Of a stretch of DNA of 36,730 nt, positions 4,350-34,604 are shown one piece after another. The stretch is from Actinomycetota bacterium. Its GTDB lineage: Bacteria; Actinomycetota; AC-67. Under the pieces are notes generated by a model. The model ran no database searches. It was not told the origin of the DNA and worked only from the letters and a program-made list of their open reading frames with translations. The DNA lies in assembly GCA_040905475.1 (NCBI GenBank), contig JBBDRM010000066.1, positions 1 through 36,730 on the forward strand, in the 5' to 3' direction. Positions within the stretch are counted from its first letter, which is position 1; each line of letters begins with the position of its first letter. Made by a program: the position numbers and the translations under genes.

Positions 4350-4367
4350 TTAGCAGGAACTTCGCAG

Positions 4368-4408
4368 AGCCCTCTGACGGACTCGAACCGTCGACCCCCT
4401 CCTTACCA
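4368..4408 (-). repeat. attachment core A: tRNA-Thr(GGT) 3' half
   Basis: Forty-one bases that, on the minus strand, give tRNA positions 33-73 of a tRNA-Thr: anticodon GGT followed by AA, stem GGAGG, T-arm GACGG-TTCGAGT-CCGTC, acceptor AGAGGGC and discriminator T. The identical 41 bases occur at 10916 and 34564, and 36 of them at 8851. The 5' half of the tRNA is absent on the right side, so this is a duplicated att core, not a tRNA gene. Confidence 0.88.
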
Positions 4409-7580: not shown

Positions 7581-7696
7581 GGCCGCGATCGGCGGGGACC
7601 CTAACGAGCGCGTCTGTCGGCACCCGCGGGCGCGGACGGCGGGCCGATGCGTCACCGTCAGGGCTGGAAGGGGGTCGCTATCGAGAGGAGGCTCTC

Positions 7697-8845: not shown

Positions 8846-8850
8846 GCGGA

Positions 8851-8886
8851 AGCCCTCTGACGGACTCGAACCGTCGACCCCCTCCT
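8851..8886 (-). repeat. attachment core B: tRNA-Thr 3' half
   Basis: Thirty-six bases identical to core A from the discriminator to the anticodon stem; it then diverges before the anticodon loop (GTAG instead of TACC). It lies six bases after integrase 2. The 120 or so bases to its right resemble those right of core A, including TTTCGCCTGCAAAT (8925-8938; TTTCCGCTGCAAAT at A) and the GTGTCC pair at 8991-9007. Elements beginning at A and at B therefore share a left-end sequence. Confidence 0.85.
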
Positions 8887-10732: not shown

Positions 10733-10915
10733 CCGCGCCCTACGCCCGACGCGTGAGTTCCGCTTCGGGGTGAGTAGCTCTGGTCGGGTTCGGGCGGATC
10801 GAACGGGTGATGGGTTCCGGCACTCCACCCCGCGTACCGCAGATGTGTCCGAAATGTGTCCGCATGTTTAACAAACAGACACCAAGATAGTGCCCATTTG
10901 CAGGTACTTTAGCTA
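10733..10915. promoter_or_regulatory. arm-type repeats left of att core C
   Basis: No gene. GTGTCC units at 10845-10850 and 10856-10861 (GTGTCCGAAATGTGTCC), 11 bases apart, match the blocks right of cores A and B. Next come ACAAACAGACACC and CCCATTTGCAGGTACTTT (10893-10910), the latter also seen near 1952 and 34542. The whole stretch reads as the end of an integrated element whose integrase gene has been lost. Confidence 0.5.
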
Positions 10916-10962
10916 AGCCCTCTGACGGACTCGAACCGTCGACCCCCTCCTTACCATGGAGG
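10916..10962 (-). repeat. attachment core C: tRNA-Thr(GGT) from the anticodon stem to the 3' end
   Basis: The same 41-base core as A and D, plus six more bases of tRNA. On the minus strand it gives a complete anticodon arm, CCTCC-ATGGTAA-GGAGG, with anticodon GGT in the loop. This identifies the target tRNA. Beyond 10962 there is no D-arm or 5' acceptor strand. To the right, ATTCGCGG and GGCCGTTTCC…CTGCA recur from the right flank of core A with about 30 extra bases between them. It marks the left limit of the 23.6 kb defence-rich island that ends at core D. Confidence 0.87.
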
Positions 10963-16825: not shown

Positions 16826-16872
16826 AGCGGCAAAGGACTCGCCGGTTGCTGGCCCTCCCTACGATTGACGCG

Positions 16873-18660: not shown

Positions 18661-18985
18661 TGGTGGGTACGTTTCCAGCGAGTTCCCCACCTTCACGCTC
18701 GACGAGGACGCGGTGCTTCCGGAGTTTCTCGCCCTTGTCTGTCGGAGGCCGAGCTTCTGGAACGAGATGCGGATTCGCTCGAGGGGCACAGCCGAACGTC
18801 GTGGCCGCTTGAACCCGCAGGATTTTCTGAACGTGGAGATCCAGCTGCCCGACCTCGACGCTCAAACCCGGTTCGTCGAACTCGAGCGCGTGATCAGGCG
18901 CATTGACGCCGAACGAGCGGCCCTTGGCGCTGTCGTCGCTGCTGCTCTCGAGCGTTTGCTGTCTTCCGGCAAAGACCCTGCATGA
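18659..18985 (+). pseudogene. remainder of the fused HsdS target-recognition domain
   Basis: After removal of one base the protein above continues DGGYVSSEFPTFTLDEDAVLPEFLALVCRRPSFWNEM…, the characteristic second half of an HsdS TRD, and ends in a helix (FVELERVIRRIDAERAALGAVVAAALERLL) like the HsdS spacer helix. The stop TGA (18983-18985) overlaps the ATG of hsdR. The whole would make a chain of about 700 residues with only one TRD; type I enzymes need two, so it would work as a dimer of half-S modules. With the frameshift the complex probably lacks specificity, unless the extra base is an error. Confidence 0.85.
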
Positions 18986-21900
18986 CGATGCTCGGCACCG
19001 AGAAGCCCGTCCAGCAGAAGATCGTCGGCGATCTTGCCGCCATCGGTTGGCGCCCTGTCGAGCGCAAGGCGATGAACGAGCTGCGCCAGGGGCGCATGGG
19101 GGAGGCGCTCGTCGAGCCGCTGCTCGTCGACGCCCTGCGCCAGCTCAACGACGACCTCAGCGAGACCGAATCGCTGCAGATCGTCGAGGCGTTGCGGCGC
19201 GTCACCGACTCCGAGTCGTTCCTCGAGATGCTGCGCGACGGCTTCGACATCCCGCTCAATCCCGACCAGGGCTCGCGTCACATCACCGTCGTCGACTGGT
19301 TGCGTCCCGAGCGCAACGGCTACGTCGTCAGCGACGAGTTCGCGCTCGAGACCGGAGCGATCCGCGAGCCGCGGGTCGACGTCGCCTGCCTGATCAACGG
19401 CATCCCGCTCGGCCTGGTCGAAACCAAGGCTTTCAACGAGGACTGGAAGGAGGCCGTCTCGGACTTCGAGGGCTACTGGGCCGACGCGCCCGAGCTCGAG
19501 CGCTACGCAGCCGTCTGCGTCGCCACCAACGGCTTCCGCTTCCGCGCCGCGCCGAGTGGCGCGCGTGGCGTCTCGAGCTACGCCGAGTGGAAGGACACCT
19601 GGCCGTACGAGAGGCCGGCAGCGCAGGAGGGGGAAGACCGTGAGCTTGAGATCGGACTGCTCGGCCTGCTCGATCCGCACAACTTGGCCGACGTCGCCGC
19701 CAACTTCGTCGTCTTCGAGACGCGCGGCGGCCTCACCAAGAAGAAGCTGGCCCGCTACCAGCAATTCCGCGCCGCGAACAAGCTGGTAAGGCGCGTCCTC
19801 GACGGCGAGCACGATCGCGGCATCGTCTGGCACACCCAGGGCTCCGGCAAAAGCCTGACCATGCTCTTCGCCGGACGGAAGCTGAAGAACGTGGGACTCA
19901 ACAACCCGACGATCTTCATCGTCATCGACCGCCGCGACCTCGACGACCAGATCAACGAGACGTTCACCGCGTGTCAGTTCAAGGGCGTCAGTCGAGCGAC
20001 GACGCGCACCAGGCTCAGCTCGCTGCTCTCCGCCGACGCTCGCGGGGTCATCATCACCACGGTCCAGAAGTTCGACGAGCAGACGTCGACGCTGGCCGAC
20101 CGCGACAACGTGATCGTCCTCGTCGACGAGGCCCACCGCACGCATGAGGGCCTCTACGGGATGCGCATGCGCGGCGCGCTGCCGACGGCGAAGTTGTTCG
20201 CCTTCACCGGCACGCCGATCGAGTCGAGCGACCATTCGACTCGGCGGGCGTTCGCGCCGGAGATCGACGGCAGGTACGAGAGCTACCTCGACGCCTACTC
20301 GCCGAAGGAGGCGATCGAGGACGAGGCGACCGTCGAGGTCGTCTACGAGCCGCGGCTCGTCGAGCTGGCCCACTTCACAGGCGAAGACCTCGATCGCTCC
20401 TTCGCCGCCTTGGTCGACGAGCTGCCCGAGGAGGAGCGGGAGAAGGTCAAGGCCGATGCGGCGCGGCTGAAGGTGGTGGCCAAGGCGCCTGCGCGGGTCG
20501 CGGCGGTCGTGACCGACGCGCTCGCCTACCTCCGCGAGCGCACCTTCCCGCAGGGCTTCAAGGCCCAGTTCGTCGCCGTCGATCGTGAGGCCTGTGCGCT
20601 TGTCGCCGACGCTCTGCTCGAGCTCGGCATGCCGGCCGAGGAGCTCGCCGTCATCTACACCCCGCACGTCAAGGAGGACGCCAAGCCGGAGAACGATCAT
20701 CTGCGCCGCTGGTCGGCCGACGCGCAGTGGCGCCGGCTGCACGGTTCGCAGGCGAGTGGGGAAGACGTCGTCGTCGACGAGGACTCCGAGCTCGACGTCG
20801 GCGAGGTGCAGGCGCGCAAGAAGTTCATCAACGCCTTCAAGGACGACGACTCGCCGCTCAAAGTGTTGATCGTCACCGACATGCTCTTAACCGGCTTCGA
20901 CGCTCCGGTCGAGCAGGTGATGTTCCTCGACAAGCCGCTGCGAGGCGCCAAGCTTCTGCAGGCGATCATGCGCACCAACAGGCCCTACCCGGAGAAGGCC
21001 AAGGACCGCGGCGTGATCGTCGACTACTGGGGCGTCTTCGACCGCCTCCAGGCCGCGTTCGCCGAGTTCTCGCCCGAGGACGTCGAGATGGCCGTCCTCG
21101 ACCTGCAGTCGCTCAAAGACAGCTTCCCGACGCTCGTTGCCGAGGCGCTCGCGCTCGTAGCTGCCATGCCGCGCGACGACGACGAGTACGAGCAGATGAT
21201 GTGGTTGCTGCGCCGGTTCATGGGCGACAAGGCAGCGGCCGAGTCGTTCGAGGAGCGCTTCCAAGCCGCCCAGTCGGCCTACGAGACGCTGGCGCCGGAC
21301 CCCGCGCTGCTGCCTCATCTCGATGACTACCGTCGGCTCGTGCGGGTGCGCGCACTGTGGCGGCGCGGGGCGAGGCTCGACGATCGCGACAGCGACTTCG
21401 ACATCCGCGAGTACCGCCCGCACACGCATGCCCTCGTCCAAGAGGCGGTCGCCGTCGAGCGTCTCCGGCGCGACCTGCCGATCTACCGCATCGACGGCCA
21501 GTACCTCAAGCGCCTGGAGGAGGCGCCCGGTTCGCCAGAGGAGAAGGCAGCCGAGGTCGAGGCGGCGATCGAATACGAGATCCGCGCCCGCGGCGGCGAC
21601 ACGGATCCCGTCGCGCGCTCGCTGGCTGAACGGCTCGAGCGCATCCGTCGCCAGAAGGAGGAAGCCGATGCCGACATGCTCAGCCTGCTCGAAGACCTCG
21701 TCGCCGACTGGGCCGCCGAAAAGGAGGCCCACGAGGCGCTCGGCCTCTCCGAGCGCGCCCAAGGGTTCTTGAGCCTGACGCGTGCCCAGGCGCCGGCGGG
21801 TCTCGGCGACGACGCTCTCGTCGACCTGGCGCGGCGGCTCGACGAAGCCGTGGCCAAGCACGCGACGGTGAGCGACTGGGCCGAGCGCGACGATGTCCGT

Positions 21901-22026
21901 CGCGACATCCGCGGCGAGGCCATGCGGACGCTGCTGGCTGACGAGCAGACGCGATCGTTCGTGACGCCGGCGTTCCTCGACGAGCTGATGACCGTCGCGA
22001 CAGCCAGGGAATCGACGACAGCATGA
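18982..22026 (+). CDS. hsdR: type I restriction endonuclease subunit HsdR
   Basis: The 1014-residue motor and nuclease subunit. An N-terminal PD-(D/E)XK domain (about 30-200) has Asp133 and Glu147-x-Lys149 (PRVDVACLINGIPLGLVETK). The SF2 translocase follows: Walker A HTQGSGKS at about 284-291, DEAH at 382-385 (LVDEAHRTHEG), TGTPIE and, in the second half, ILIVTDMLLTGFDAP-like and QAIMRTNRPYP motifs. The C-terminal helical region (about 750-1000) would contact HsdM. Full length for HsdR. The ATG overlaps the TGA of the HsdS part (ATGA), and its own TGA overlaps the next ATG, so translation is chained. The frame is intact although its partner HsdS is broken. Confidence 0.96.
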   Translation: MTMLGTEKPVQQKIVGDLAAIGWRPVERKAMNELRQGRMGEALVEPLLVDALRQLNDDLSETESLQIVEALRRVTDSESFLEMLRDGFDIPLNPDQGSRHITVVDWLRPERNGYVVSDEFALETGAIREPRVDVACLINGIPLGLVETKAFNEDWKEAVSDFEGYWADAPELERYAAVCVATNGFRFRAAPSGARGVSSYAEWKDTWPYERPAAQEGEDRELEIGLLGLLDPHNLADVAANFVVFETRGGLTKKKLARYQQFRAANKLVRRVLDGEHDRGIVWHTQGSGKSLTMLFAGRKLKNVGLNNPTIFIVIDRRDLDDQINETFTACQFKGVSRATTRTRLSSLLSADARGVIITTVQKFDEQTSTLADRDNVIVLVDEAHRTHEGLYGMRMRGALPTAKLFAFTGTPIESSDHSTRRAFAPEIDGRYESYLDAYSPKEAIEDEATVEVVYEPRLVELAHFTGEDLDRSFAALVDELPEEEREKVKADAARLKVVAKAPARVAAVVTDALAYLRERTFPQGFKAQFVAVDREACALVADALLELGMPAEELAVIYTPHVKEDAKPENDHLRRWSADAQWRRLHGSQASGEDVVVDEDSELDVGEVQARKKFINAFKDDDSPLKVLIVTDMLLTGFDAPVEQVMFLDKPLRGAKLLQAIMRTNRPYPEKAKDRGVIVDYWGVFDRLQAAFAEFSPEDVEMAVLDLQSLKDSFPTLVAEALALVAAMPRDDDEYEQMMWLLRRFMGDKAAAESFEERFQAAQSAYETLAPDPALLPHLDDYRRLVRVRALWRRGARLDDRDSDFDIREYRPHTHALVQEAVAVERLRRDLPIYRIDGQYLKRLEEAPGSPEEKAAEVEAAIEYEIRARGGDTDPVARSLAERLERIRRQKEEADADMLSLLEDLVADWAAEKEAHEALGLSERAQGFLSLTRAQAPAGLGDDALVDLARRLDEAVAKHATVSDWAERDDVRRDIRGEAMRTLLADEQTRSFVTPAFLDELMTVATARESTTA

Positions 22027-22841
22027 GTGCAGCAGGCCGCGCCAGTGTCCGGAAGGTGTCGCCGCCGCTACGGGATCGGAGGCCGCACCGCTTCGTCATC
22101 GGGGAAGAGACGTTGGTGGTGCGTGTCCGCGAATCGCGGCGCGCGAAGACCTTACGGATCATCGTCGGGCCGCGCCGACCGCTGGAGGTGATCGTTCCCC
22201 GCGGCCTCGGCGCCGGAGACGTCGACGCCTTCCTCGAGGAGAAGCGCCGTTGGGTCGAGACCAAGATCGCCGAAGCGCGCGCGATCAGCGACCGGCCTCC
22301 CGAGCTTGGCCTCGAACGCGCCGGCACCGTCTGGCTCGCAGGCCGCGAGCTTCCGATCGAGCGCCGCAACGCACGACGCGCGATCGCGATGGTGGAGGGC
22401 GATCGCTTGGTTGTCTTCGGCCCCGACGAGAGTGCGGCGGCGGCCGTCGAGCGTTGGTACCGCCGTGAGGCGCGCCGTCGCGTAGCGGATGTCGTGCGGC
22501 GGGAGGCCGAGCGGCTCGGGTACGAGTACCAGGCGATCGGCATCCGCGACCCGCGCACGCGCTGGGGCTCGTGCTCGCGTCGCGGCAACCTCTCGTTCTC
22601 TTGGCGGCTGCTGCTTGGGCCCGACGACGTGCTCGAGTACGTCGTCGTGCACGAGCTCTGCCATCTTCGCGAGCCGAGTCACCGGAAACCGTTCTGGCGA
22701 CTGCTCGAGTCGGTTCGACCGGGCTGGCAGGAGCAGGCGCGGTGGCTCCGCGAGCACGGACAGGAGCTGCACGCGTACGACCCAGCTGTCTCATTGGCGA
22801 GCGCTTCCCCGTCTCCACCGCTCGCGACGGCTGCTGGTTAG
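22023..22841 (+). CDS. YgjP/M48-like metallopeptidase
   Basis: A 272-residue YgjP-type (DUF45) zinc metallopeptidase related to SprT/WLM proteins. The DUF45 signature WGSCSRRGNLSFSW is at 181-194, HELCH (zinc ligands and catalytic Glu) at 210-214 and the third His at 220 (SHRKPFW). The N-terminal part (LVVRVRESRRAKTLRIIVGPRRPLEVIVPRG) is the usual beta region. The ATG overlaps the TGA of hsdR (ATGA at 22023-22026), so it is translated as the last gene of the restriction operon. DUF45 genes often follow hsdR in other genomes. Its role there is not known to me; turnover of HsdR or of stalled protein-DNA complexes is a guess. The stop overlaps the convergent qatD stop. Confidence 0.9.
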   Translation: MSAAGRASVRKVSPPLRDRRPHRFVIGEETLVVRVRESRRAKTLRIIVGPRRPLEVIVPRGLGAGDVDAFLEEKRRWVETKIAEARAISDRPPELGLERAGTVWLAGRELPIERRNARRAIAMVEGDRLVVFGPDESAAAAVERWYRREARRRVADVVRREAERLGYEYQAIGIRDPRTRWGSCSRRGNLSFSWRLLLGPDDVLEYVVVHELCHLREPSHRKPFWRLLESVRPGWQEQARWLREHGQELHAYDPAVSLASASPSPPLATAAG

Positions 22842-23596
22842 ACCGTCTCGGCCGACGCCGTTTTCGCGCTGCGGTGGATCTCGGACATCGTCGTGAAGAT
22901 CGAATCGCGCGCCTCGTCGGGCGTAAGTCCCCACCTGTGCGCGAGTTCCAGGACGACCGTCGGCACGTCGCGCGGCTCGGAAGGCCGCCCGCCAACCTTC
23001 GTGTAGGGGGCATCGGTCTCCGTGACGACGCGCTCGTGCGGCAAGGCGGCGATGACGCGGCCTCCGTTCTTGCTGCCCAGCATGGCTGGGTTGACCGAGA
23101 AGTAGAGCCCGGCCTCGAGCGCCCGTTCGATCGCCCTGAGCGGGCCCGAATACCAGTGCAAGATCGCGGTCGTGCCCGCGGCGGCCAGCAGCTCGATTGT
23201 CTCCTTCTCGGCGCCTCTCGAGTGCACCGTCAGCACCTTCTTGCCGATCTCGGGGAGCGCCAGGATCCGCTCGAAGACCTCCCGTTGTCGCCGTGCTGAG
23301 TCGCGCCCTTGCTGCGAGTGGTCGAGCCCGACCTCTCCGATGTAGTCGGTCCGTTCGAGCATGCGCCGGAACAGAGCCAGCTCGTGGGCGAGGTCGCGTG
23401 GCACGACGAGCGGGTGGAAGCCGAGTGCGACGCGGACGCGCTCGCGCCCGCGCAGTTGCGTCTGCAGCATCTGGAAGTGCGACGGCAACTCGGTGACGGC
23501 GATGGTGACCACGCCGGCGCGTTCGGCGGCGTCGAGTACCGCCGGCGGGTCGTCGAAGCGGTCGATGTGACAGTGGCTGTCGACGTACAGGCTCAG
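22838..23596 (-). CDS. qatD: QatD, TatD-like nuclease of the Qat anti-phage system
   Basis: A TatD-family metal-dependent hydrolase (about 252 residues) and the fourth gene of the Qat system. Metal and active-site residues are visible: HxH (VDSHCHID, about residues 8-10), GEVGLD, VHSRGAEK, ILHWYSG and TETDAPY. No ATG, GTG or TTG precedes the HxH motif after the qatC stop. The frame opens at CTG 23596, which overlaps the qatC TGA as CTGA exactly where ATGA would be expected. Translation could also begin at the second CTG (23590) or, less well, inside at 23512, which would remove the HxH motif. The gene ends at 22838 with stops overlapping the convergent metallopeptidase. Confidence 0.87.
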   Translation of the reverse strand: MSLYVDSHCHIDRFDDPPAVLDAAERAGVVTIAVTELPSHFQMLQTQLRGRERVRVALGFHPLVVPRDLAHELALFRRMLERTDYIGEVGLDHSQQGRDSARRQREVFERILALPEIGKKVLTVHSRGAEKETIELLAAAGTTAILHWYSGPLRAIERALEAGLYFSVNPAMLGSKNGGRVIAALPHERVVTETDAPYTKVGGRPSEPRDVPTVVLELAHRWGLTPDEARDSIFTTMSEIHRSAKTASAETV

Positions 23597-24939
23597 CCGC
23601 GGTCCCCTCCGGCGGTGAGCGCGTCAAGCAGCTCCTGTCCCGCGCCGGCGGTGATCCAGGACAAAAACTCGTCCCTGCCGCGGCGGTAGACCGCGTCGAA
23701 GGCGGCGGCGTCGTCGGCGGGGACCGCTCCGTTGCGGAGCACATCGGTCCGGTGCGGGTCGCGCGCGAGCCCGCGCACCAGGGCGCGCAGGTCGGCGCCG
23801 CGATCGGATTCCTCCTCGAGCAGGTCGGCCTCGGTCAGCGCGTCGTGACGGTAGCTGGCGCCAGCGTCGAGGCTGATGCCGTGGAGGGCTCCTCGTCGGA
23901 TCAAGCACGGGAAGCAGTAGCCGCAGTTCGACGGCGGCAGCCTGTCCCAGCGCGCCGATTCCGGGTGCGCGCAGGAGATCGAGTCGTCGACGAGTGCCGC
24001 GAGCAGCTTCTTGTTGCGGCACTCGGCAAGCGCCTCGCCCTTCGTCTTGACACGAAATGGGTTGACGATCTCGTTGCCGATTCCGAGCGCGTCTAGCGCG
24101 TCCTCGAGTTGCGCCATGAAGTAGGGGTGGGTCGTCCGGGTGCTCAAGCTGCCGGCGCGCGAGGCTACGAAGGGGACGTTGATGCCGATGAAGCCGTTCT
24201 CCGGCACGTAGAGCGGCACCTCCTCGCCGAAGGCACTCGCGACGGCGAGTCCGGCGGCGACGAACAGGAAGGACCGCGCCCGTGTCGTGACCTCGCGCTC
24301 CTTCTCGCTCGGCAGCGGGCGCGCCTGCAGGCGGTTCGGCTTTGCGGGCCCGAGCCGGAGCTGCCGCAGACGAACACGATCGCGGTAGTTGCGCCGTAGC
24401 TCTCGGGCGAGCGTCTCCTGGACGCCGCCGATGAAGCCGCTCTCGAAGTGGCCGACGAGGATTACGTCTCGACCTTCCTCAAGGAGGTCGATCGCCCCGG
24501 CCAGCGAGTCGAGGCCTCCGGAGAAGAGACAGATGGCGTCGGGCGGGCGCACGCGAGTCTCACCGCTGACGCCCCCGGCCCCGGCGCGGAAGCGCAGCTT
24601 CCAGCGGTCGCCACTCAAGAACGCGAGCGCCTCGGTGAGCGCCTGCCGCGCCGTCTGCCAGTCGGAACGCGTCGTGACCGGGGCGGCGAGGTCGAGCTCA
24701 CGTGTCCACGCGTCCGCTGTCCGGTCGCGGCGGGCGACCTTGTCGACGCAATAGACCGCGCCGCCGAGGCGGAACAGGTCGCGCGCAGCTGGAGTCGGGG
24801 CCAGGCCGTAGAGGAGGTCGGTCGTTGCCGACACTGTCGAGCGTTGGCGGTGGGCGCCGCCGAACCAGTCGAGGACGAACGTATCGGCGTCGGTCGGCAG
24901 CGGCTGGTCGCGCGCGGTGCGGAGGTGGAAGCCGGTCAT
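23593..24939 (-). CDS. qatC: QatC, QueC-like protein of the Qat anti-phage system
   Basis: A 448-residue protein with the adenine-nucleotide alpha-hydrolase fold of QueC. A PP-loop CLFSGGLDSLAGA at about 137-149 is followed by VILVGHFESG. Further on are ENGFIGINVPF and a zinc-type cysteine cluster (CAHPES … NCGYCFPCLIRR) like that of QueC. QueC makes the preQ0 nucleobase; in Qat the homologue is required for defence, possibly through nucleobase-like modification of QatB. The first 130 residues are specific to this group. The ATG at 24939 overlaps the qatB TGA (ATGA). It is full length and intact. Confidence 0.92.
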   Translation of the reverse strand: MTGFHLRTARDQPLPTDADTFVLDWFGGAHRQRSTVSATTDLLYGLAPTPAARDLFRLGGAVYCVDKVARRDRTADAWTRELDLAAPVTTRSDWQTARQALTEALAFLSGDRWKLRFRAGAGGVSGETRVRPPDAICLFSGGLDSLAGAIDLLEEGRDVILVGHFESGFIGGVQETLARELRRNYRDRVRLRQLRLGPAKPNRLQARPLPSEKEREVTTRARSFLFVAAGLAVASAFGEEVPLYVPENGFIGINVPFVASRAGSLSTRTTHPYFMAQLEDALDALGIGNEIVNPFRVKTKGEALAECRNKKLLAALVDDSISCAHPESARWDRLPPSNCGYCFPCLIRRGALHGISLDAGASYRHDALTEADLLEEESDRGADLRALVRGLARDPHRTDVLRNGAVPADDAAAFDAVYRRGRDEFLSWITAGAGQELLDALTAGGDRG

Positions 24940-25643
24940 TCCTCGAGGTCCTCCAAGACGCCGTAGACGCTCCGCAGCGCCGACTCGATCAGGCGCCGTC
25001 CCTCGGCTCCTGACCAATCGACGGCGAGCGGGTCAACGTCCCGTAGCCGGATGCGGACCTGGGCCCGGATCAGCTGCCGCAAGTCACCGTCCAGTCGCTC
25101 GGCGCGGGCGGCGTCGGCGTAGCGCGTCAGGCGTTCGTCGATCTGGGGCAGCAGGCGGTTGTAGATGTAGTAGGCGATGAAGGCCTCGAGCGCCCGCACC
25201 AGCCCGTCGGCGTCAAGGGTGAGGTCTGCGAGCTCGTCGTAGGCCTCGGCGTCGGCGAACAGCTCGTCGATCACATCGAGGGCCGCCGCCCGCGCCGCCT
25301 GGCCTTCGAGGTCGCTGCCGGCGCCGGCGATCACGTCGACCAGCGCGCGGACGACGTCGAAGCGGCCGCGGCCGACTAGGTCGCCGAGGCCAGCGTCGCG
25401 GAGGGTTGGCGTCAGCCCGTCACGGGCGATGCCGGCGAGGAGGTCGGCGAAGTTGGCCGCTCCGGCGATCCCGGCTCGCGCCGACCGCGTCGCCCCGGCG
25501 GCACCGCCGAGGGTGCCGACGTGGCGGGCGACCACCCGCTCGGCGCGACTGCGGCCGCCGTGCTTGGCGTAGCTCGTCGCCGCGCGTTTGAACGGCGTCC
25601 ACGCGCCGCCTTGGCCGCCGCCGTAGTCGGTCGAGGTACCCAT
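24936..25643 (-). CDS. qatB: QatB of the Qat anti-phage system
   Basis: A 235-residue protein with the hallmarks of QatB. The start is Gly-rich and Ser/Thr-rich (MGTSTDYGGGQGGAWTPFKRAATSYAKHGG), followed by an alpha-helical body with the AYYIYNRLLPQIDERL segment and a short VYGVLEDLEE end. It has no enzyme motif. In studied Qat systems QatB is essential and pairs with the QueC-like protein. The assignment rests on its position between an unmistakable QatA and QatC and on the N-terminal pattern. The ATG (25643) shares its last base with the qatA stop (TGATG) and the gene ends in ATGA with qatC, so the set is translationally coupled. Confidence 0.87.
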   Translation of the reverse strand: MGTSTDYGGGQGGAWTPFKRAATSYAKHGGRSRAERVVARHVGTLGGAAGATRSARAGIAGAANFADLLAGIARDGLTPTLRDAGLGDLVGRGRFDVVRALVDVIAGAGSDLEGQAARAAALDVIDELFADAEAYDELADLTLDADGLVRALEAFIAYYIYNRLLPQIDERLTRYADAARAERLDGDLRQLIRAQVRIRLRDVDPLAVDWSGAEGRRLIESALRSVYGVLEDLEE

Positions 25644-27448
25644 CAGCGGCCGCCCCCGAGCGCTTCTGCGGCGGCGCGCTTGAGCCCACCCGACCCCGAC
25701 GTTCCCCACCGCTCGAGGAGCTTCGTCAGCTCCGGTGGACGCGGGTCGATCGCGGCGACCAGCTTCGCCGGCAGCTGCAGGGGCACGCTCGCCGGCGGGA
25801 GCTCGTCGAGCGCCGAGGCGAGTCGTCCGACGAGCTCGGTCTTGCGCGCCGCGATCTCGATCGCGCTGTCGAGCGCGTGGCCGCGCGGATCGCGCGAGCC
25901 GCGTTCGAGCAGGACGTCGAACACCTGCACCATCTCGGCGGCGCCGAGGTCGACGCCCTCCTCGATCGCCGTCCGCCGCGTCGCTGCGACGGCGTGCTCG
26001 AGGCGTCCGAGCAGCTCTTGCAGCGCCGCCGGCAGCCGCGCTGCGGGCGCTGCCGGCGAGAGGCGGTCGCGCGAGAAGTAGAAGTACGGTGCGAGGTCGA
26101 CATCGGCGAGCGCCGGTTCGAGCCGAAGCCAGGGGCCGATGTGAAGCTGTGCCGCCCACGTCGCCGCCTCGTCGCTCATGCCCTTCGGCTTCTTGTCGGT
26201 CGCGGCGAGCGACTCGGCCTGCTTCAGCTCGACGGGCTTTCCGTGCTGGTCGATCTGCCACGCGAACAGCTGTGCGAAGTCCTTCAGGTGCAGCTGCTCG
26301 AGGATCATCAGCTTGGACAAGACCGCGGGGTCGAGCTCGATCCCTCGCCCGCCTGCGGCGCGACGGCGGACGCTCAAGATGTTCAGGAACCGCTTCAGCT
26401 GGCGCGGGTTCCCGCGCAGGCCGCGTGCGAGGACCGGCGAGATCTGGTTCGCGAGCGCGAACGCCGCCTCGAGGCCGTCGGGCGGCGAGTCGAGGATCTC
26501 GCGCGCGATGCCCCAGTTCATGACCACCGTCAACTGCTCGCTCTTCCGGCGCTCCTGTGCCGCGGCTTGCAGGCGCTCGAGCGGTCCGGCGTCGAGATAG
26601 AGCTCGGCCAGGAGCAGGTTGATGTACGTCTCGGCCTCCGGCTCCGAAAGCGGCGGGATGTTGACCGAGATCTGGATGATCTTCTCCAGGTAGTCGACGC
26701 CGAGCGTCTCGTCGCCTTCGCGGTTGACCGGGTAGCGGGCCTCGATCGCGGCCTGGACGATGCGTTGGTCGGCGGCGATCACGTAGGCGGTCTTCGGCAC
26801 GTGCAGGAAGAGGCGGATCGCCTCGAAGGTGTCGACGATCGAATCGGGCAGGCAGCGGTCGAGGTCGTCAATAAACACGACCAGCGCCTGCAAATCGTCG
26901 AGGTCGGCCATCAGCGCCTCGAACTCGGTGCGGAACTCGGCGATCGAGTGGAGTCGGTCGGGCGCCTCTGTCTCGTCCTCCTCCTCGACCGGCGCCGGCT
27001 TCAGCAGCTGGGCGTCCGACAAGGCCGCCATCTCCGGCGGCACGTCCGCGCCGTGAGAGAGCAACGCCAGCCGCCCGAGGAGCTTCGCCGCCCCGAGCAT
27101 GTTCACCCGCCGCACCATCTCGCCGAGCCGCTTGCCGGCCTTGTCGGCGAAGGTCACGTCGGTCTGCGCCCGCTCCTGCACCGCGCCGATGACCGACGCC
27201 ATGAGCGCAGTCTTCACGTCCTCGTAGTCCTCAAAGCGCCAGGGGCTGAACGAGACGGTCAGGAACTTCTCTTCCGCGGCCAGGGCCTCCTCGGCCATAC
27301 CGATTAAGCTGCTCTTGCCGGAGCCCCAGTCACCGGCCACGCCAACGGTGACCGGCAGGAGGCGCGGGTCGCGCAGGATGATCAGCAGCTCGTCGACCAG
27401 GAAGTCGAAGCCGAGCAGATCGATCCGAGTCTCGTTGTCAGCCCACAT
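25643..27448 (-). CDS. qatA: QatA, KAP-family P-loop ATPase of the Qat anti-phage system
   Basis: A 601-residue KAP P-loop NTPase, the first gene of the Qat operon. The start MWADNETRIDLLGFDFLVDELL is typical of soluble KAP proteins. Walker A GDWGSGKS is at 39-46, FSPWRFEDY at 67-75 and Walker B LVVFIDDLDRCLP at about 189-201, and the sensor region GNPRQLKRFLNIL is visible. Unlike many KAP proteins no transmembrane segments are seen in the insert (about 100-170). The C-terminal helical region (about 440-600) carries many Leu-Ala repeats. Together with qatB, qatC and qatD it makes a full, uninterrupted system on the minus strand. No clear ribosome site precedes the ATG at 27448. Confidence 0.94.
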   Translation of the reverse strand: MWADNETRIDLLGFDFLVDELLIILRDPRLLPVTVGVAGDWGSGKSSLIGMAEEALAAEEKFLTVSFSPWRFEDYEDVKTALMASVIGAVQERAQTDVTFADKAGKRLGEMVRRVNMLGAAKLLGRLALLSHGADVPPEMAALSDAQLLKPAPVEEEDETEAPDRLHSIAEFRTEFEALMADLDDLQALVVFIDDLDRCLPDSIVDTFEAIRLFLHVPKTAYVIAADQRIVQAAIEARYPVNREGDETLGVDYLEKIIQISVNIPPLSEPEAETYINLLLAELYLDAGPLERLQAAAQERRKSEQLTVVMNWGIAREILDSPPDGLEAAFALANQISPVLARGLRGNPRQLKRFLNILSVRRRAAGGRGIELDPAVLSKLMILEQLHLKDFAQLFAWQIDQHGKPVELKQAESLAATDKKPKGMSDEAATWAAQLHIGPWLRLEPALADVDLAPYFYFSRDRLSPAAPAARLPAALQELLGRLEHAVAATRRTAIEEGVDLGAAEMVQVFDVLLERGSRDPRGHALDSAIEIAARKTELVGRLASALDELPPASVPLQLPAKLVAAIDPRPPELTKLLERWGTSGSGGLKRAAAEALGGGR

Positions 27449-27648: not shown

Positions 27649-28476
27649 CTAGGCTTGGCTGATGGGTGCGGCGGGGGTGACGTGAGCCGCATCGAGGCGA
27701 CGATGAAGCATCGAGGCGAGAGTCAGAAGATCCAGCGCGTCCTCGAGTCCGATGGGCCAGCTGATCTTCGGGGCGTGAGCGGTTGTGTTGCGGAACGTCC
27801 CGAACATGCCTTTCACCAACATCGCCAGGCCCTTGTGCTCGCTCTCCTCCGTCGGCGACTGGAGCAGGTTGAACGCCAACGCCGGCATCCCACCCTTTAT
27901 GCCAAACGCGTCGTCGACGAGTTGGCCGCCGTCGCTCTTGAGGCCAGTCCTAGTGCGGATCTTGTCGGCGACGCTTTTCGTCGCCTCGAAGACAGCATGG
28001 AAGTAGTTCCTTTGCACGAGCTCGGCACGGCAGAAAGCGAGTACGTCGGGATGTACGTTGCGCTCGCGAAGCTTCGCCTTCAGTGCGTTCGCCCGCTCTT
28101 GCGCCTCGGTAAGCGTGGTCGTCGGCGCTGCCGGATAGAGCTTGCCGTTCTCACGCAGTTCGAGACCGACGAAGCCCAGCGTTAAGTTGAGCCCCTCGCG
28201 GTGTGCCTCGAAGCGCTCCGGCTCGCTGCCAAACCGTTCCGGCGCCATCGCCACTTTGATGAAGCGGCAGACGGCGTTGGCGTTGCTGTCTTGGTTCTGT
28301 CGAGATGCGAGCGATTCGTACAGGCGCTTCCACTTCGTGCTCTGTTGCGAAGTGTCGGCGATGCTGGCCGCCGGCAGCAACCGGTCCATCTGACTGCCGG
28401 TCATGGCCTCGCCGAGTTCGCGACACAGCGCTTCGAGCTGACCGGCCGTGAAGGGCGGAACCGTCTTGTGAGGCAT
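27649..28476 (-). CDS. TIGR02391/Ymh-domain protein
   Basis: A 275-residue protein. The last 130 residues match the TIGR02391 (Ymh) domain pattern: VHPDVLAFCRAELVQRNYFHAVFEATKSVADKIRTRTGLKSDGGQLVDDAFG, then MPALAFNLLQSPTEESEHKGLAMLVKGMFGTFRNTTAHAPKI and EDALDLLTLASMLHRRLD. The RN-TAH motif recalls HEPN-like RNases (RX4-6H), which would make it a toxin-like RNase; that link is inference. The N-terminal part (QLEALCRELGEAMTGSQMDRLLPAASIAD …) resembles the TIR-less abortive-infection N-termini that often precede this domain. The start is ATG 28476; the longer frame to 28746 has poor codon use and overlaps the divergent gene. It sits between Qat and the small cassette, probably a defence gene. 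Confidence 0.82.
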   Translation of the reverse strand: MPHKTVPPFTAGQLEALCRELGEAMTGSQMDRLLPAASIADTSQQSTKWKRLYESLASRQNQDSNANAVCRFIKVAMAPERFGSEPERFEAHREGLNLTLGFVGLELRENGKLYPAAPTTTLTEAQERANALKAKLRERNVHPDVLAFCRAELVQRNYFHAVFEATKSVADKIRTRTGLKSDGGQLVDDAFGIKGGMPALAFNLLQSPTEESEHKGLAMLVKGMFGTFRNTTAHAPKISWPIGLEDALDLLTLASMLHRRLDAAHVTPAAPISQA

Positions 28477-28657
28477 GTCGAGCACGCTAGCGCCTACCCC
28501 AGGGAGAGGCCCTGTGTGGTCGAGCACGCAGTCCAAGCTCTTGCCTCGCGCTCGAGCTTCGAGCGTCCCTGAAGCCAAGACCTGCACACGTAGTCCTGGC
28601 TGCGCCCGCTCTTCGCCTCCTTCAGTCTCCATCCGGTGGGCGACGTACGTTCCTCGG

Positions 28658-28993
28658 GTGGTTAGAGACGCAGATGTCGTGCTCGCGACCTTGGGGGCCA
28701 CAACGGCGCTCGCAGGGTTCACGCTCGTCTTCCTGGGTGTCGTCATTACGCGCTACGAGGAGACGATCCCGGGTGCGTCCGTACGTGTGCGAAGCCGCTT
28801 CGTCGGTCCAGCGGGGGAACTCCTTGGCGCATTTATGCTGGGCCTGGCAACCGTCGGTATGAGTTTCGCGTGGCTCGTCGCACGTGGCGGACACGGCTTC
28901 TACGTTGTTGTCGTCGTTCTGTTCGCGGTTCAGATCGTCTCGACTGCGCTCGCGTCCGGACACGTGACGCGGGGTGTCCTACGGAAGACGTGA
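28658..28993 (+). CDS. small membrane protein, three predicted TM segments
   Basis: A protein of about 111 residues, if started at GTG 28658, with hydrophobic stretches at about 9-30 (VLATLGATTALAGFTLVFLGVVI), 56-73 (LLGAFMLGLATVGMSFAWLV) and 80-97 (GFYVVVVVLFAVQIVSTAL). The frame is open upstream to 28475, but that part has poor codon bias and overlaps the divergent TIGR02391 gene start, so I exclude it. The start is therefore uncertain. It heads a tight run of three plus-strand genes. A small TM protein next to short helical partners is the layout of many membrane-effector defence cassettes, but no known family is recognised. Confidence 0.65.
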   Translation: MVRDADVVLATLGATTALAGFTLVFLGVVITRYEETIPGASVRVRSRFVGPAGELLGAFMLGLATVGMSFAWLVARGGHGFYVVVVVLFAVQIVSTALASGHVTRGVLRKT

Positions 28994-29504: not shown

Positions 29505-29750
29505 ATCCGCCGGTGCTCTTTCGTCGACGCCGAGTGGTCGCTGTGTCGGCGAACCTATCCGCTCGGCGGCGTCGGTCGAGGAGCCCCGGCGAACGGCTGC
29601 GTCCTACCAGGGCCGCTCTCGCCCGACCACGTGCAGACGCTCGCGAACAATGTCGCAGCGGCACTCCGGTCGCCTTACGCGGAGCGCAACGTGCCACGAG
29701 TCTCGCGTCCCGACTGTTCCCGGCTCTCGCCGACTCGCTCATTCGGTTGA
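29505..29750 (+). other. codon-biased open frame without a start
   Basis: From just after a TAG (29502-29504) a plus-strand frame runs to a TGA at 29748-29750. It has strong G/C third-position bias and plausible protein content (FVDAEWSLCRRTYPLGGVG … LSPDHVQTLANNVAAALRSPYAERNVPR), but no usual start codon before its middle. It overlaps the end of the convergent ATPase gene by 12 bases. It is either a 5'-truncated gene piece or a fourth member of the small cassette whose start is damaged. Confidence 0.3.
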
Positions 29751-32700
29751 CGGCGACGTCGACCTTCCGCTGCTCACCTCATTGGGCTTCGACGTTGCTG
29801 CCGAGGTCGGGAAGACGTATTCCAAAGCTTCGGCTTCGCGGACGCCGCCAAAGGTGAGATCGTTGCGGAGGCGAAGCGGGAGTCGTGCGAGCGGGTCGAA
29901 GATGAAGCGCACCCGAAGCTCGCCGGCGCCCTCCTCGAGGCCGGCGACGACCGCGAGGAAGAAATCGTGGTCAGTTCTGGCGCGTTCGACCTCGTTCGGC
30001 GTCAGCGTGATCTCGTTCGGGATCTCGTTTCCCGACGACATCTTGATCTCGAAGCACTGGCGCAGTTCGTCGATCGCATCGGCGCCGACTCCGCGTCGGT
30101 GACGGAGATCGGCTACCTCGCCATCCCCGAGCGCGAGCGCAGCCATCACAGCGTCGTATGCGAGCTGCTCTCGCGCGCTCATCGGCGGCAGCACGCTTGG
30201 CGGCACCGGCGCGCCGATATCCGTCGTCCTTCCGTCTGGGTCGTCGCTGGTGGTCGTGCCGGTCTTCGGCGGCGTGCCGTCGCCGGTTATCGTGCGCTTT
30301 CGGGGCGGTGGAACGATGATCCCGCCGCGTGGAGCCCCCGCATTGACGATCGTCCCCTGCGACGGCTCGAGCTTGTCGATCTCCTTCAGCTTGCGCACCT
30401 TGACGCCGCCGACGCCGTTGGACGTCGTGCCGGCGGCCGGTTTTTTGGTCGTCTTACCCCTGCGGGTGCGTCGATCGTCGGCCTGGGTACGCAGATGAGC
30501 GAGCCGATCGTCCTCGGCTTCGTCCGCGTTGCCGTCGCTCGAGAGGACGATCTTCTGGGCTCCGAGACCGCTCTCGGCCTTCTGCCACATCGCCACCCAC
30601 GCCCACGCGACCTTTTGCCGGTCGCCGTTGAACAGGTCTGCGATCGCGCGGCCACCACCTTCGGCCGAACCGACGTCTTCTGCGGACCGGGCGAACAGCG
30701 TCAGCGGTTGCCGGAGCAGGTGCGCCTCGGCCGGCGCGACAAGCCGGCGACCGCCGGGGACGGTCGCCGCGACCTCTAGATCACGGTCGAGAACAAGGAG
30801 CGCCGCTGCGAGCTCGTCCCAGGCGACGGTCAGCGTCTCGTAGAGCGTCTGGTCGCGGCGGGCGAGCTCGGTGCGGAGGTGCTCGACCGCGAGCACGAAC
30901 CGCGGCCGGAATTCGTCGCCGACGGCCGCGCCGTAGCCGGCGTTCGCAACCGGCATGAACTGCTCCGCACCGATCAGCGTGAGCCCGAGCGCCTCGATCA
31001 GCGATTCCATGTCGTCGATGGCGAATCCGGGCTGCCAGACGCGTGCTTGATCGGCGACTGCGCCGGCCACCGCTTCGTCCGCGATCGCGTACACGGGTCG
31101 TCGTGTTGTCCACTCCTCGCCAGTCCAGACGGGAAGCGACCGCAACGTCGCGCGCAGTTGCGGGGTCGCATCTCCGAGCGCGCGAGCCAGTGTCCGCATC
31201 GTCTCGATGATCACCGGACGATCGCCATCGCCAAGTGGCCCGTCGTCTGCGATGTCGCGCAGGACCGCGACGCAGTCTCGTGCCTCGGGAAGCGGGATCT
31301 GGAGGGTCCGCCAGAGCGGTTCGAGCAGCGACGTGTTCGCAACGAACGGCCGCCGGCGTCCGAAGATCGGCGGCCCGCTCAGCACCTGCGCCGGCGCGTA
31401 CCAGCGACCGTTGATCAAGAGCAGCCCGCGCGCGCGCCCGCCGCGGCCGCCGGCGAAGTGCGACCGTAGCGCGGCGACCGTCATGTCGTCGACCGGTCGC
31501 TGGCCGCGGCCATCCGCCGGGCAGGCGAGTGCAAGGATCCGGTACGCCGTCCGCGTCTGCTCCTCGATCGATGCCCGGGTCTTGCCGGCGTCGCGTAGCT
31601 CTTCGAGCCGGGCGACGATGCTCGTCGCCGACGGGCCGCGTCTGATTCGCAGCGCCGGCAACGCAGGACTCCGCAGCACGTGGTCATCGACGCGCATCAG
31701 GTACAGGCTGCGTTTGTCGCCGACCGTCAGACGGTTTGCCTCGCTTGGGAGGTGCAGGTCGAGCGGTGCGTGCAGTGCGCCGGTTGCGCACGGAAGCCAC
31801 GGTTCGGATGCGGCTCGAGCGAGCCAGGTCGCTAGCACCTCGCCGCGGGCGTGCCAGTAGCCGTCGTAGCCCCAGACCGCCTGCGCGGTCGCGTGATCGG
31901 CGAACTGACGCTCCCAGCCGCGCGCCACGAGCCCGAGAAGTGCGCTTGCCCGTCGTTTGCGGCCTGTGCCCGGTCGGTCAGCCTTGATGTTCTCGATCAC
32001 TGCGTCCAGATCCGGCGACCAGCGGTCGTCGATCAGATGGGTGGCGCGTTGGTTGAGCGCGCGCAGCTCGGTCGCCTGCACCTCGGGGAGGCGCCACTGT
32101 TCGAGTGGGCTCACGAGTCGCGGGTCGCGGCTGTAGCGCTGGATCTCGTTCGGGGGCCGCACTAGGCGCGGGAACGTCTGCACCCCAAGCCGCGCGAGCA
32201 GACGCTGTGCGCCGAGTTCGCGTCGACCGCCGGCGCGTTTGAGCACCAGCCTGTAGTCAGGTGATACCCAGGTGAGCTGCGGCGTCTTGCCGGCGGCACG
32301 CGCGAAGCTGTCGGTCTCGCGGTCGATCTGCGGTGGCAGATAGGCCGTGCTCGGGGAGACCCAGAGCGGCTCGGTCTTACCGCGGTCGTCGTAGCGGAAG
32401 CCCCGAAGCTCGATCGCTCGGCCGATCTTCGGTCCGAGCTCGCGTTGCTCGTCGTCGCTGAGTCGCTCGAAGGCGTCGCGGAGGGAGAGGAGCGGGCCGT
32501 CGTCGAGCGGGATCGGCTCACGCCTCCCGCGCGCAAGCAAAGCGAGCGCTTCGCCGTCGGAGTCGTACGCGCCGACAAGCAGCTTTTCCTCCTCGAGCTC
32601 GCTGCGCACGCGGCGTGCCATCTTGTCGCCGCCGAGGTAGACGGGGTGGATGGCGAGGGTCAAGCCGAGCTGCGAGGCCAGGCTTTGCGGTTCGTCACGA

Positions 32701-34340
32701 ACGACCAGCGACCGGGGTTCATCCGGGCGCGGCGGCGCGACGCGCGTTCCGTCAGCAAGCATGACGCCGCGCCTATCGCAGAACTTGCCGAACACCCCAT
32801 CCTCGACCGCGGCTGCGGCGAACGCCACATACCACTGTGGTTGACGCTCCCCGAGCTCGGCGTCGTCGAGCTCGAGCAGCTCGAGCGCTTCTTCGACATC
32901 GAGCAGCTGTGAGCGTCCGAGCTCTTGCAGGACGCGTCGCCAGCGACCGAACCGGTCGCGCTGCGTAGGAGGAACAGCCGAGAACCCGTCTGCGAGTCGT
33001 TCCTGGTCGCTCCCGGTCAGGACGCCGTCGAGACCTGAGTCCTCGAAGACGATCTCGTCGAGCGGCTGCGGCGCGTCTTCCCGCCCCAGCCGAAGCTCGT
33101 CGGCGAGGCGGAGATGACAGCGGCCGATCACGTCGAACAGGAACCGCTCGCGCAGCCATTCGCTGATCCCGTCGGGAACGTCGTGCAGCAGCGGCACCGC
33201 ACCCCAGGCACGTCGCGCGTCGTGGCTAAACAGCTCGAGTGCGACAGCGGCGAGCAGATCGCCGAGCTCGGCGAAGCGGTGCGCATTCCAGGCCCGCTCA
33301 TGCAGGGTCGAGCGTGCGGTGTCGGGGTCGAACTGCGCGTTGAGGCCTACAGGCAAGTTGGATGCAACCGGCAGCGGCAGCCGGTCGTACAGCAGCCCCT
33401 GTTCGGGCCGCCGAGGTACGCAGATGCCGAGTGTGGTCGTCGGCCCGGTAGCCTTGTTGTGCCGGCGCTCGTCCGCCTTCAACGGAATCTCGACCAGGTA
33501 GCGCGAGTAGGTCTGGCTCCGGTCACGATCCGTGAGCTCGACGACCTCGACCTCGAGCTCGCGCCCGTGAAGCTGGAGCTGCGCCATGCGGCGCTGCCGT
33601 GCGTGGAGCTGATGGTCGACGACAGCGGAGCCGCGTTTCAGATCGATCTGCGCGACGCGCCGGATGCTTCGCAGGAAGACGAGCGAGCGTGTGCCGAGCT
33701 CGGTCATGAACTGCTCGAGCGCCGCCGTGTCGACCTCGTCGTCGAGCGGTACGACGAGCAGCGTCTCGCTGGCCGAGGGGTCATAGAAGCCGTCGATCGC
33801 CGGCTCGGGCGGGCAGGGGGCCGGTACCTCGCCCATGCGGAAGTGGTAAGGATGGCAGTGTGCGTCGATCGGACCGCCGAGCGCGCGCAGCGTCTTCTGG
33901 CCGATCCCGAACCTTCCGGAGGCGCTCGGGTCGTCGGCTTTTGTGCTCACCCAGGGAAGCACCATCGCGCCGACATGCGCCAGTGAGATCGGTGCCCCAT
34001 TGTGGACGATCAGCAGCTCCCGGCGCGGCCCCTTCACGCGTAGCGCGACCCGGAGCTCAGTGGCGCCGAGGTCATCGCCGTTCTGTATCGACTCGACGAT
34101 GCCCTGGAACGGGCGGGCGCTCAAGCTCTCTGCGCCGCGTTCGGATCCGCGGCGGCTCGCCTGCAATAGTGCCGGCTGGTCTTCGATCAGCTCCGCCAGC
34201 CGCTCAATCGCGGCCGCCGCGAATTCCGGCGAGGCGAGATCGGTCAAGCCGTCCATCTCCGGCCAGCTATGAGCGAGGTGCTCAGCCGCCTTCCGGCCAA
34301 GCTGGGCGTCTGTCGTGGTGGCTGCCGAGGGTTCCGTCAC
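29739..34340 (-). CDS. sacsin/NO VEIN-like ATPase with a C-terminal nuclease-like domain
   Basis: A 1533-residue protein. The N-terminus is a GHKL/Hsp90-type ATPase: N-box PFQGIVESIQNGDDLGATEL (Glu83, Asn87, Asp90) and G-box SGRFGIGQKTLRALG at about 141-155, as in sacsin-type proteins. About 1200 residues without recognisable motifs follow, rich in Arg and Asp pairs. A basic, low-complexity linker then begins (KTTKKPAAGTTSNG … PPPRKRTITGDG). Last is a domain resembling the NO VEIN C-terminal domain (DUF3883): ELRQCFEIKMSSGNEIPNEITLTPNEVERARTDHDFFLAVVAGLEEG, with an E-x-K of the PD-(D/E)XK type. It starts at GTG 34340 with no clear ribosome site. Proteins with this architecture occur in bacterial defence islands; function and trigger are unknown. 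The gene is intact and stands alone, 220 bases left of att core D. Confidence 0.8.
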   Translation of the reverse strand: MTEPSAATTTDAQLGRKAAEHLAHSWPEMDGLTDLASPEFAAAAIERLAELIEDQPALLQASRRGSERGAESLSARPFQGIVESIQNGDDLGATELRVALRVKGPRRELLIVHNGAPISLAHVGAMVLPWVSTKADDPSASGRFGIGQKTLRALGGPIDAHCHPYHFRMGEVPAPCPPEPAIDGFYDPSASETLLVVPLDDEVDTAALEQFMTELGTRSLVFLRSIRRVAQIDLKRGSAVVDHQLHARQRRMAQLQLHGRELEVEVVELTDRDRSQTYSRYLVEIPLKADERRHNKATGPTTTLGICVPRRPEQGLLYDRLPLPVASNLPVGLNAQFDPDTARSTLHERAWNAHRFAELGDLLAAVALELFSHDARRAWGAVPLLHDVPDGISEWLRERFLFDVIGRCHLRLADELRLGREDAPQPLDEIVFEDSGLDGVLTGSDQERLADGFSAVPPTQRDRFGRWRRVLQELGRSQLLDVEEALELLELDDAELGERQPQWYVAFAAAAVEDGVFGKFCDRRGVMLADGTRVAPPRPDEPRSLVVRDEPQSLASQLGLTLAIHPVYLGGDKMARRVRSELEEEKLLVGAYDSDGEALALLARGRREPIPLDDGPLLSLRDAFERLSDDEQRELGPKIGRAIELRGFRYDDRGKTEPLWVSPSTAYLPPQIDRETDSFARAAGKTPQLTWVSPDYRLVLKRAGGRRELGAQRLLARLGVQTFPRLVRPPNEIQRYSRDPRLVSPLEQWRLPEVQATELRALNQRATHLIDDRWSPDLDAVIENIKADRPGTGRKRRASALLGLVARGWERQFADHATAQAVWGYDGYWHARGEVLATWLARAASEPWLPCATGALHAPLDLHLPSEANRLTVGDKRSLYLMRVDDHVLRSPALPALRIRRGPSATSIVARLEELRDAGKTRASIEEQTRTAYRILALACPADGRGQRPVDDMTVAALRSHFAGGRGGRARGLLLINGRWYAPAQVLSGPPIFGRRRPFVANTSLLEPLWRTLQIPLPEARDCVAVLRDIADDGPLGDGDRPVIIETMRTLARALGDATPQLRATLRSLPVWTGEEWTTRRPVYAIADEAVAGAVADQARVWQPGFAIDDMESLIEALGLTLIGAEQFMPVANAGYGAAVGDEFRPRFVLAVEHLRTELARRDQTLYETLTVAWDELAAALLVLDRDLEVAATVPGGRRLVAPAEAHLLRQPLTLFARSAEDVGSAEGGGRAIADLFNGDRQKVAWAWVAMWQKAESGLGAQKIVLSSDGNADEAEDDRLAHLRTQADDRRTRRGKTTKKPAAGTTSNGVGGVKVRKLKEIDKLEPSQGTIVNAGAPRGGIIVPPPRKRTITGDGTPPKTGTTTSDDPDGRTTDIGAPVPPSVLPPMSAREQLAYDAVMAALALGDGEVADLRHRRGVGADAIDELRQCFEIKMSSGNEIPNEITLTPNEVERARTDHDFFLAVVAGLEEGAGELRVRFIFDPLARLPLRLRNDLTFGGVREAEALEYVFPTSAATSKPNEVSSGRSTSPSTE

Positions 34341-34493: not shown

Positions 34494-34563
34494 ACCCTAT
34501 GCACCCCGGAACATATGCAAGTGGATCCGAGTGGAAAAGGCCCCATTTGCGGCGACTTTGCAG

Positions 34564-34604
34564 AGCCCTCTGACGGACTCGAACCGTCGACCCCCTCCTT
34601 ACCA
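34564..34604 (-). repeat. attachment core D: tRNA-Thr(GGT) 3' half
   Basis: Identical over 41 bases to cores A and C (tRNA positions 33-73 on the minus strand). The sequence just left (CCCCATTTGCGGCGACTTTGCAG) resembles that left of core C. The D-arm half of the tRNA is again absent on the right. It bounds the 23.6 kb island that starts at core C. A complete tRNA-Thr gene is not in the window and should lie outside it. Confidence 0.88.

Follow-up and report, generated by a model that had tools for sequence, protein, structure and literature searches.

What does a bacterial protein of 1533 residues do that carries the nucleotide-binding boxes of a GHKL ATPase at its front and a nuclease-like domain at its end? 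The question is raised by the minus-strand gene at positions 29739–34340 of the window, by which we mean the whole stretch of 36,730 nucleotides analysed here. An earlier note on this DNA had described an Hsp90-type ATPase joined to a NO VEIN-like end across some 1200 residues without known motifs, and had placed it among defence-island proteins. We examined the gene, its homologues, its predicted structure and its surroundings, and see the value of the analysis in the concrete proposal it yields for the mechanism of a defence family that has a name but no explanation.

Gene and Family Identity

The frame is intact over all 1533 residues, as had been noted before, and opens with a GTG start codon. 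That the frame is long merely by chance in GC-rich DNA was rejected on two grounds: the longest frame among 30 dinucleotide-shuffled versions of the window has 536 residues, and the GC content at the three codon positions (0.74/0.50/0.82) is as in a real high-GC gene. The gene is present in one copy in its genome. Its product matches PADLOC TmtA model PDLC03968 from residue 8 to 1511, on model positions 6–1481 (1476 of the 1486 covered), at 1376.9 bits, and the earlier note missed that it thereby belongs to an anti-phage system that already has a name. TmtA is the protein of Tiamat, a system that Millman et al. named in 2022. The model that matches the window protein also takes in homologues from Pseudomonas and Kluyvera. 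The remaining PADLOC TmtA models score only 20–35 bits against the window protein, and the experimentally tested Tiamat may belong to any of the models. In distant proteins that score high on the remaining models, a GHKL front is likewise combined with an E-x-K-containing, NOV-like end. The gene is real and well conserved. It is a new, divergent member of the Tiamat/TmtA kind, sharing about 46% identity with the nearest relatives known, and not a new system. A 2026 review gives the mechanism of Tiamat as unknown (PMC12926258). The features discussed below are collected in Table 1.

Table 1. Coordinates of TmtA, its parts and the flanking direct repeats in the window
Feature	Position	Strand	Evidence
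TmtA-like gene, 1533 aa, GTG start	29739..34340	-	full-length PADLOC TmtA match PDLC03968, 1376.9 bits; single copy
Hsp90/sacsin-type ATPase module (N domain and Hsp90-like middle domain), residues ~60–420	33081..34163	-	AF2, Foldseek, sacsin SR1 profile
N-box E83xxQN87xxD90	34071..34094	-	E83, Q86, N87 and D90 invariant in 65 homologues
G1 region H113-[ND]-G115, His where Hsp90 has Asp	33996..34004	-	H113 and G115 in 65/65
G2 motif GRFGIG, residues 142–147	33900..33917	-	G142, F144, G145 and G147 invariant in 65
R343, candidate catalytic-loop arginine (Hsp90 R380/sacsin R474 equivalent)	33312..33314	-	invariant in 65 homologues and 29/29 distant relatives
Tandem repeat of ~115 aa, residues ~895–1017 and 1011–1122	30975..31658	-	hhalign of family profiles
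Flexible linker, residues ~1281–1385	30186..30500	-	much low pLDDT; low conservation; relaxed dN/dS
C-terminal NOV_C/DUF3883 PD-(D/E)XK nuclease-like domain, residues 1387–1510	29811..30182	-	NOV_C in family, AF2, Foldseek
D1421, first acidic residue of predicted active site	30078..30080	-	65/65 homologues
E1431-x-K1433, predicted catalytic E-x-K	30042..30050	-	65/65 homologues
tRNA-3'-end-like direct repeat, probable attachment site, ~220 bp upstream of TmtA start	34563..34599	-	repeat search
Matching tRNA-3'-end-like repeat, other end of TmtA segment	10915..10951	-	repeat search

The ATPase Module

The AlphaFold (AF2) model of residues 1–1190 has a pLDDT of 90, and comparison of its N-terminal part with the PDB by Foldseek returns full-length HSP90 (HSP90B) as the best match (E 6.2e-8) with TRAP1 next, followed at about 1e-4 by MORC2, including a structure with DNA, and MORC3. 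The likeness to Hsp90, HtpG and TRAP1 lies in the fold of the N and middle domains, at sequence identities of about 11–13%, while no Hsp90 C-terminal dimer domain is recognised in TmtA. By sequence profile the solved relative is animal sacsin, which had escaped the earlier note: the NCBIfam sacsin ATP-binding model matches residues 80–154 (E 3.5e-14), and the family profile finds the crystal structures of sacsin SR1 (PDB 5v44–5v47) at E 2.5e-10 over two stretches, with equivalent N-box, GRFGIG motif, threonine and candidate catalytic arginine. Sacsin differs in having three such modules and a DnaJ-HEPN end (PMC3710099), where TmtA has a single module and a nuclease-like end.

Invariance was counted over 65 full-length homologues, and in the front part comprises E83, Q86, N87, D90, H113, G115, K134, G142, F144, G145, G147, T150, T193, K296 and R343. 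The N- and G-boxes claimed earlier therefore stand: the N-box E...N..D, the GxxGxG of G2 and the fold are those of a GHKL ATPase, and the ATP site is predicted to be intact. The exception is the G1-box aspartate, the adenine contact of GHKL ATPases, which is His113 in 65/65 (the window protein reads H113-N-G115); the same position is mostly Asn or His in the wider circle of distant bacterial sacsin-type relatives. Histidine here is thus a group trait, and nucleotide use could differ, since the canonical aspartate is replaced in all 65. In the model R343 lies in the loop between strand 332–335 and the long helix 350–373, a strand–loop–long-helix arrangement (332–373) that is the setting described for the catalytic-loop arginines Hsp90 R380 and sacsin R474 (PMC9880540). 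From this position we infer that R343 is their equivalent, and every one of the 29 distant relatives aligned at this position has it too. K296 was considered as a phosphate-contacting lysine and set aside in favour of R343, being invariant in the close family and not in distant relatives.

The Middle Part and the Nuclease-like Tail

Structure prediction, the check put forward with the original description, gives a GHKL/Hsp90 fold at the front and a nuclease-like fold at the tail, neither end lacking the fold claimed for it, and also defines what lies between. Rather than some 1200 motif-less residues we find an Hsp90-like middle domain with the conserved arginine, then further folded modules, two of which repeat in tandem, and last a disordered linker. 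Comparison of family profiles by hhalign gives the repeat a probability of 91% for overlapping and 85% for non-overlapping blocks, and supports the pair listed in Table 1 only; a repeat of at least five modules across the whole middle was rejected on the same comparison. The linker shows the lowest conservation in the TmtA gene outside the termini.

The tail carries the motifs GAD1421-x9-E1431-I-K1433 and LTPNEVERA, with G1419, D1421, E1431 and K1433 invariant in the 65 homologues. Assignment to DUF3883/NO VEIN, as first proposed from the E-x-K and LTPNEVERA pattern, holds at the level of the family: Pfam NOV_C (PF13020) aligned to the window protein alone covers residues 1408–1470 at E 0.27 and 11.8 bits, below the 22.1-bit cut-off, whereas 17 of 46 family members match at E ≤ 0.01, the best at 2.8e-8. 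The AF2 model of residues 960–1533 has a pLDDT of 85, with 1387–1510 mostly above 90, and this domain is modelled as helix, three strands, helix and strand, the order of the PD-(D/E)XK fold, with E1431-x-K1433 on the third strand. Its best Foldseek match is the N-terminal domain of Eco15I (E 0.05, probability 0.92), with PvuII at 0.15; these fold matches are suggestive and by E-value not significant, and when the PDB was searched by sequence with the C-terminal profile, the only matches were chance or low-complexity ones. As a lead only, Asp precedes the E-x-K Glu by ten residues in the PvuII site as well.

DUF3883 has earlier been called a novel REase domain and predicted to be a restriction-type endonuclease (PMC3710099). 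Plant NO VEIN, the source of the NOV_C name, has this end in common with TmtA by name and motif. Similar by description are the paraMORC3 GHKL-nuclease proteins of Iyer et al. (2008), in which a GHKL-S5 ATPase is followed by a restriction-fold E-D-ExK nuclease at the C-terminus and whose genes lie in restriction-type neighbourhoods, the difference being that their nuclease is related to RecB and not to NOV_C (PMC2292703).

Homologues, Spread and Selection

A scan of genome contigs with the single sequence gave no matches, and an alignment-based scan limited to a single genome of each species found 80 loci, the majority full length. These are spread patchily over Alpha-, Beta- and Gammaproteobacteria, Actinomycetota, Chloroflexota and Planctomycetota, and the homologue nearest to the window protein is 46–47% identical. 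Within the window's own phylum, full-length matches occur in only two other genomes among the 397 sampled. The homologue from relative G161 is identical to that of a named Streptomyces, which makes Actinomycetota the probable phylum. In the tree the window protein clusters with proteobacterial, planctomycetal and chloroflexotal sequences, and this grouping with sequences of other phyla suggests that the gene was acquired by horizontal transfer.

For ten close pairs of homologues dN/dS was determined domain by domain, giving 0.11–0.27 for the ATPase module, 0.13–0.22 for the middle, 0.18–0.90 for the linker and 0.03–0.15 for the nuclease domain. These ratios directly show purifying selection on TmtA in close homologues. 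Selection had been claimed before from the intact frame; the claim stands on the dN/dS values, and the frame alone is a weak argument for it. The nuclease domain has the lowest dN of all domains, and a dN/dS below that of the middle, in all ten pairs, which speaks directly for the importance of the nuclease end. In one pair (L036/L041) dS is 0.87 in the ATPase part against 0.13–0.17 in the rest of tmtA, a contrast that seems to point to recombination exchanging front ends between homologues.

Two IMG/VR contigs classed as viral (L137, L138) carry full-length TmtA. Among the eight neighbouring frames tested on them no phage structural genes were found, only one C5 DNA methylase, and these contigs may be islands rather than phages. 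A separate, common protein of Streptomyces type (frames of ~900–1100 residues at L018–L030, about 10 genomes), has a sacsin-like ATP site as well, with the motifs ELAQNAADAAA, ANTGAPLD and GRFGVGFAAV.

Proposed Mechanism

The reading we favour, at a probability of roughly 60%, is that the gene encodes a TmtA (Tiamat-family) protein acting as a single-protein anti-phage effector, in which ATP-driven, Hsp90-like closure would license a tethered nuclease. The long middle part would meet an infection-specific ligand, which might be the phage's DNA, one of its proteins or a DNA structure; ATP binding would then close the N and middle domains, as in Hsp90, MutL and MORC, and closure would release or position the tethered nuclease to cut DNA. 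Cutting could be aimed at the phage DNA itself, or hit DNA indiscriminately and thereby halt the infected cell. What computation contributes to this proposal is the predicted ATP site, the predicted D-x9-E-x-K nuclease site, the tether, purifying selection and the defence-island setting described below; GHKL-S5 proteins with a C-terminal E-D-ExK nuclease have likewise been predicted to work in restriction (PMC2292703). The invariant residues and the models make the mechanism concrete, with E83, N87 and R343 at the ATP site, D1421, E1431 and K1433 at the nuclease site, and a flexible tether.

The best fold match of the tail, the Eco15I N-terminal domain, was solved with methylated DNA, and it is therefore possible that the tail binds without cutting. 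The tail would then be a sensor of modified or foreign DNA, and the Hsp90-like part the effector, clamping or looping DNA or blocking replication, an arrangement in keeping with the DNA clamping of MORC-type GHKL proteins and with MORC2 on DNA being among the fold matches. We consider it unlikely, for in a domain that only senses, loss or diversification of the catalytic residues would be expected, but all 65 homologues keep the D-x9-E-x-K of PD-(D/E)XK catalysis unchanged and the tail has the lowest dN.

Kinship in sequence with sacsin SR1 and the Hsp90-like N and middle fold could also mean that TmtA acts on phage proteins that are misfolded or assembling, recognising them as a sacsin-like chaperone or a protein-remodelling ATPase, with the tail secondary, and the sacsin literature does argue for ATP-driven chaperoning (PMC9880540). 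This appears quite improbable: family scans show no J-domain or HEPN-like end, and the sole end recognised is the nuclease-like domain, the most conserved part of the protein.

With the nuclease-licensing effector as the preferred reading, a wider proposal may be entertained tentatively, though we hold the odds to be against it: Tiamat proteins would be ATP-gated restriction-like enzymes, in which an Hsp90/sacsin-type clamp and a repeat-bearing middle sense infection and a tethered PvuII-like NOV_C nuclease fires, and eukaryotic sacsin and NO VEIN would descend from such bacterial immune proteins. The analysis links an immune protein of bacteria with sacsin, which is known from ataxia and over whose ATPase activity debate continues.

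Genomic Surroundings

TmtA sits on a mobile defence island. Beside it lie a gene for a Ymh/PD-Lambda-3_B-like protein (27649–28746), a complete-looking QatABCD operon (22838–27448, minus strand) encoding a KAP ATPase, QatB, a QueC-like QatC and a TatD-like QatD, and a type I restriction locus (16846–22026). In the latter, hsdM is fused to a half-size hsdS (16846–18990, plus strand) with its reading frame broken near 18660, and is followed by hsdR (18982–22026) and then a YgjP-like metallopeptidase gene (22023–22841). These genes and the repeats described next support the defence-island setting proposed at the outset. The accompanying picture of a region full of pseudogenes was overstated, as the QatABCD frames are open and the one clear frame break is that in hsdM-S.

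A 37-nucleotide repeat resembling a tRNA 3' end occurs in four copies of the same orientation (4367–4403, 8850–8886, 10915–10951 and 34563–34599), and TmtA lies in the 23.6 kb segment bounded by the last two, at a distance of 220 bp from the edge of that segment. Tyrosine integrase genes (3135–4349 and 7697–8845) end just before the first two copies, and three more copies are found on two other contigs (C44, C159), two of them beside related integrases. ARAGORN detects no complete tRNA at the repeat sites, those on the other contigs included; judged by eye, the repeat is probably the end of tRNA-Thr(GGT). Together the four repeats and the integrases make up a series of islands inserted in tandem at a single tRNA end.

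Beside most of the roughly 80 homologues there is no recurring partner gene. One gene alone recurs as an immediate neighbour, encoding a TM0106-type RecB-like nuclease-helicase of ~1120 residues and found near TmtA at nine loci (L003, L036, L041, L042, L044, L049, L050, L073 and L095) on about six separate branches, upstream and on the same strand in eight of the nine and within 400 bp in five of those. A recurrent 'UvrD' group among the neighbours proved to be antisense open frames over the TM0106 gene and was dropped. The TM0106-family protein is a possible partner of Tiamat, and TmtA might be one part of a larger system with it or with QatABCD. We hold such a system to be very improbable: a search of this genome, run without a positive control, gives no TM0106 match, and most homologues have no such gene nearby. 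QatABCD as an obligate partner was rejected, for of the window's Qat proteins only QatA was matched beside the 80-odd homologues, by one weak match.

Frames are broken inside the match at 12 of the 80 homologous loci, which is consistent with turnover, draft-assembly errors being a further possible cause, and which shows that loss of tmtA is tolerated. That the gene is a relic or a housekeeping gene without a role in defence is nevertheless the most improbable reading of all, given the intact frame here, purifying selection in close relatives, the defence-island setting and the patchy, horizontal distribution. Elsewhere in the window, at 5304–7655 on the minus strand, lies a gene for a TOTE-type archaeo-eukaryotic primase fused to a DEAD/ResIII helicase.
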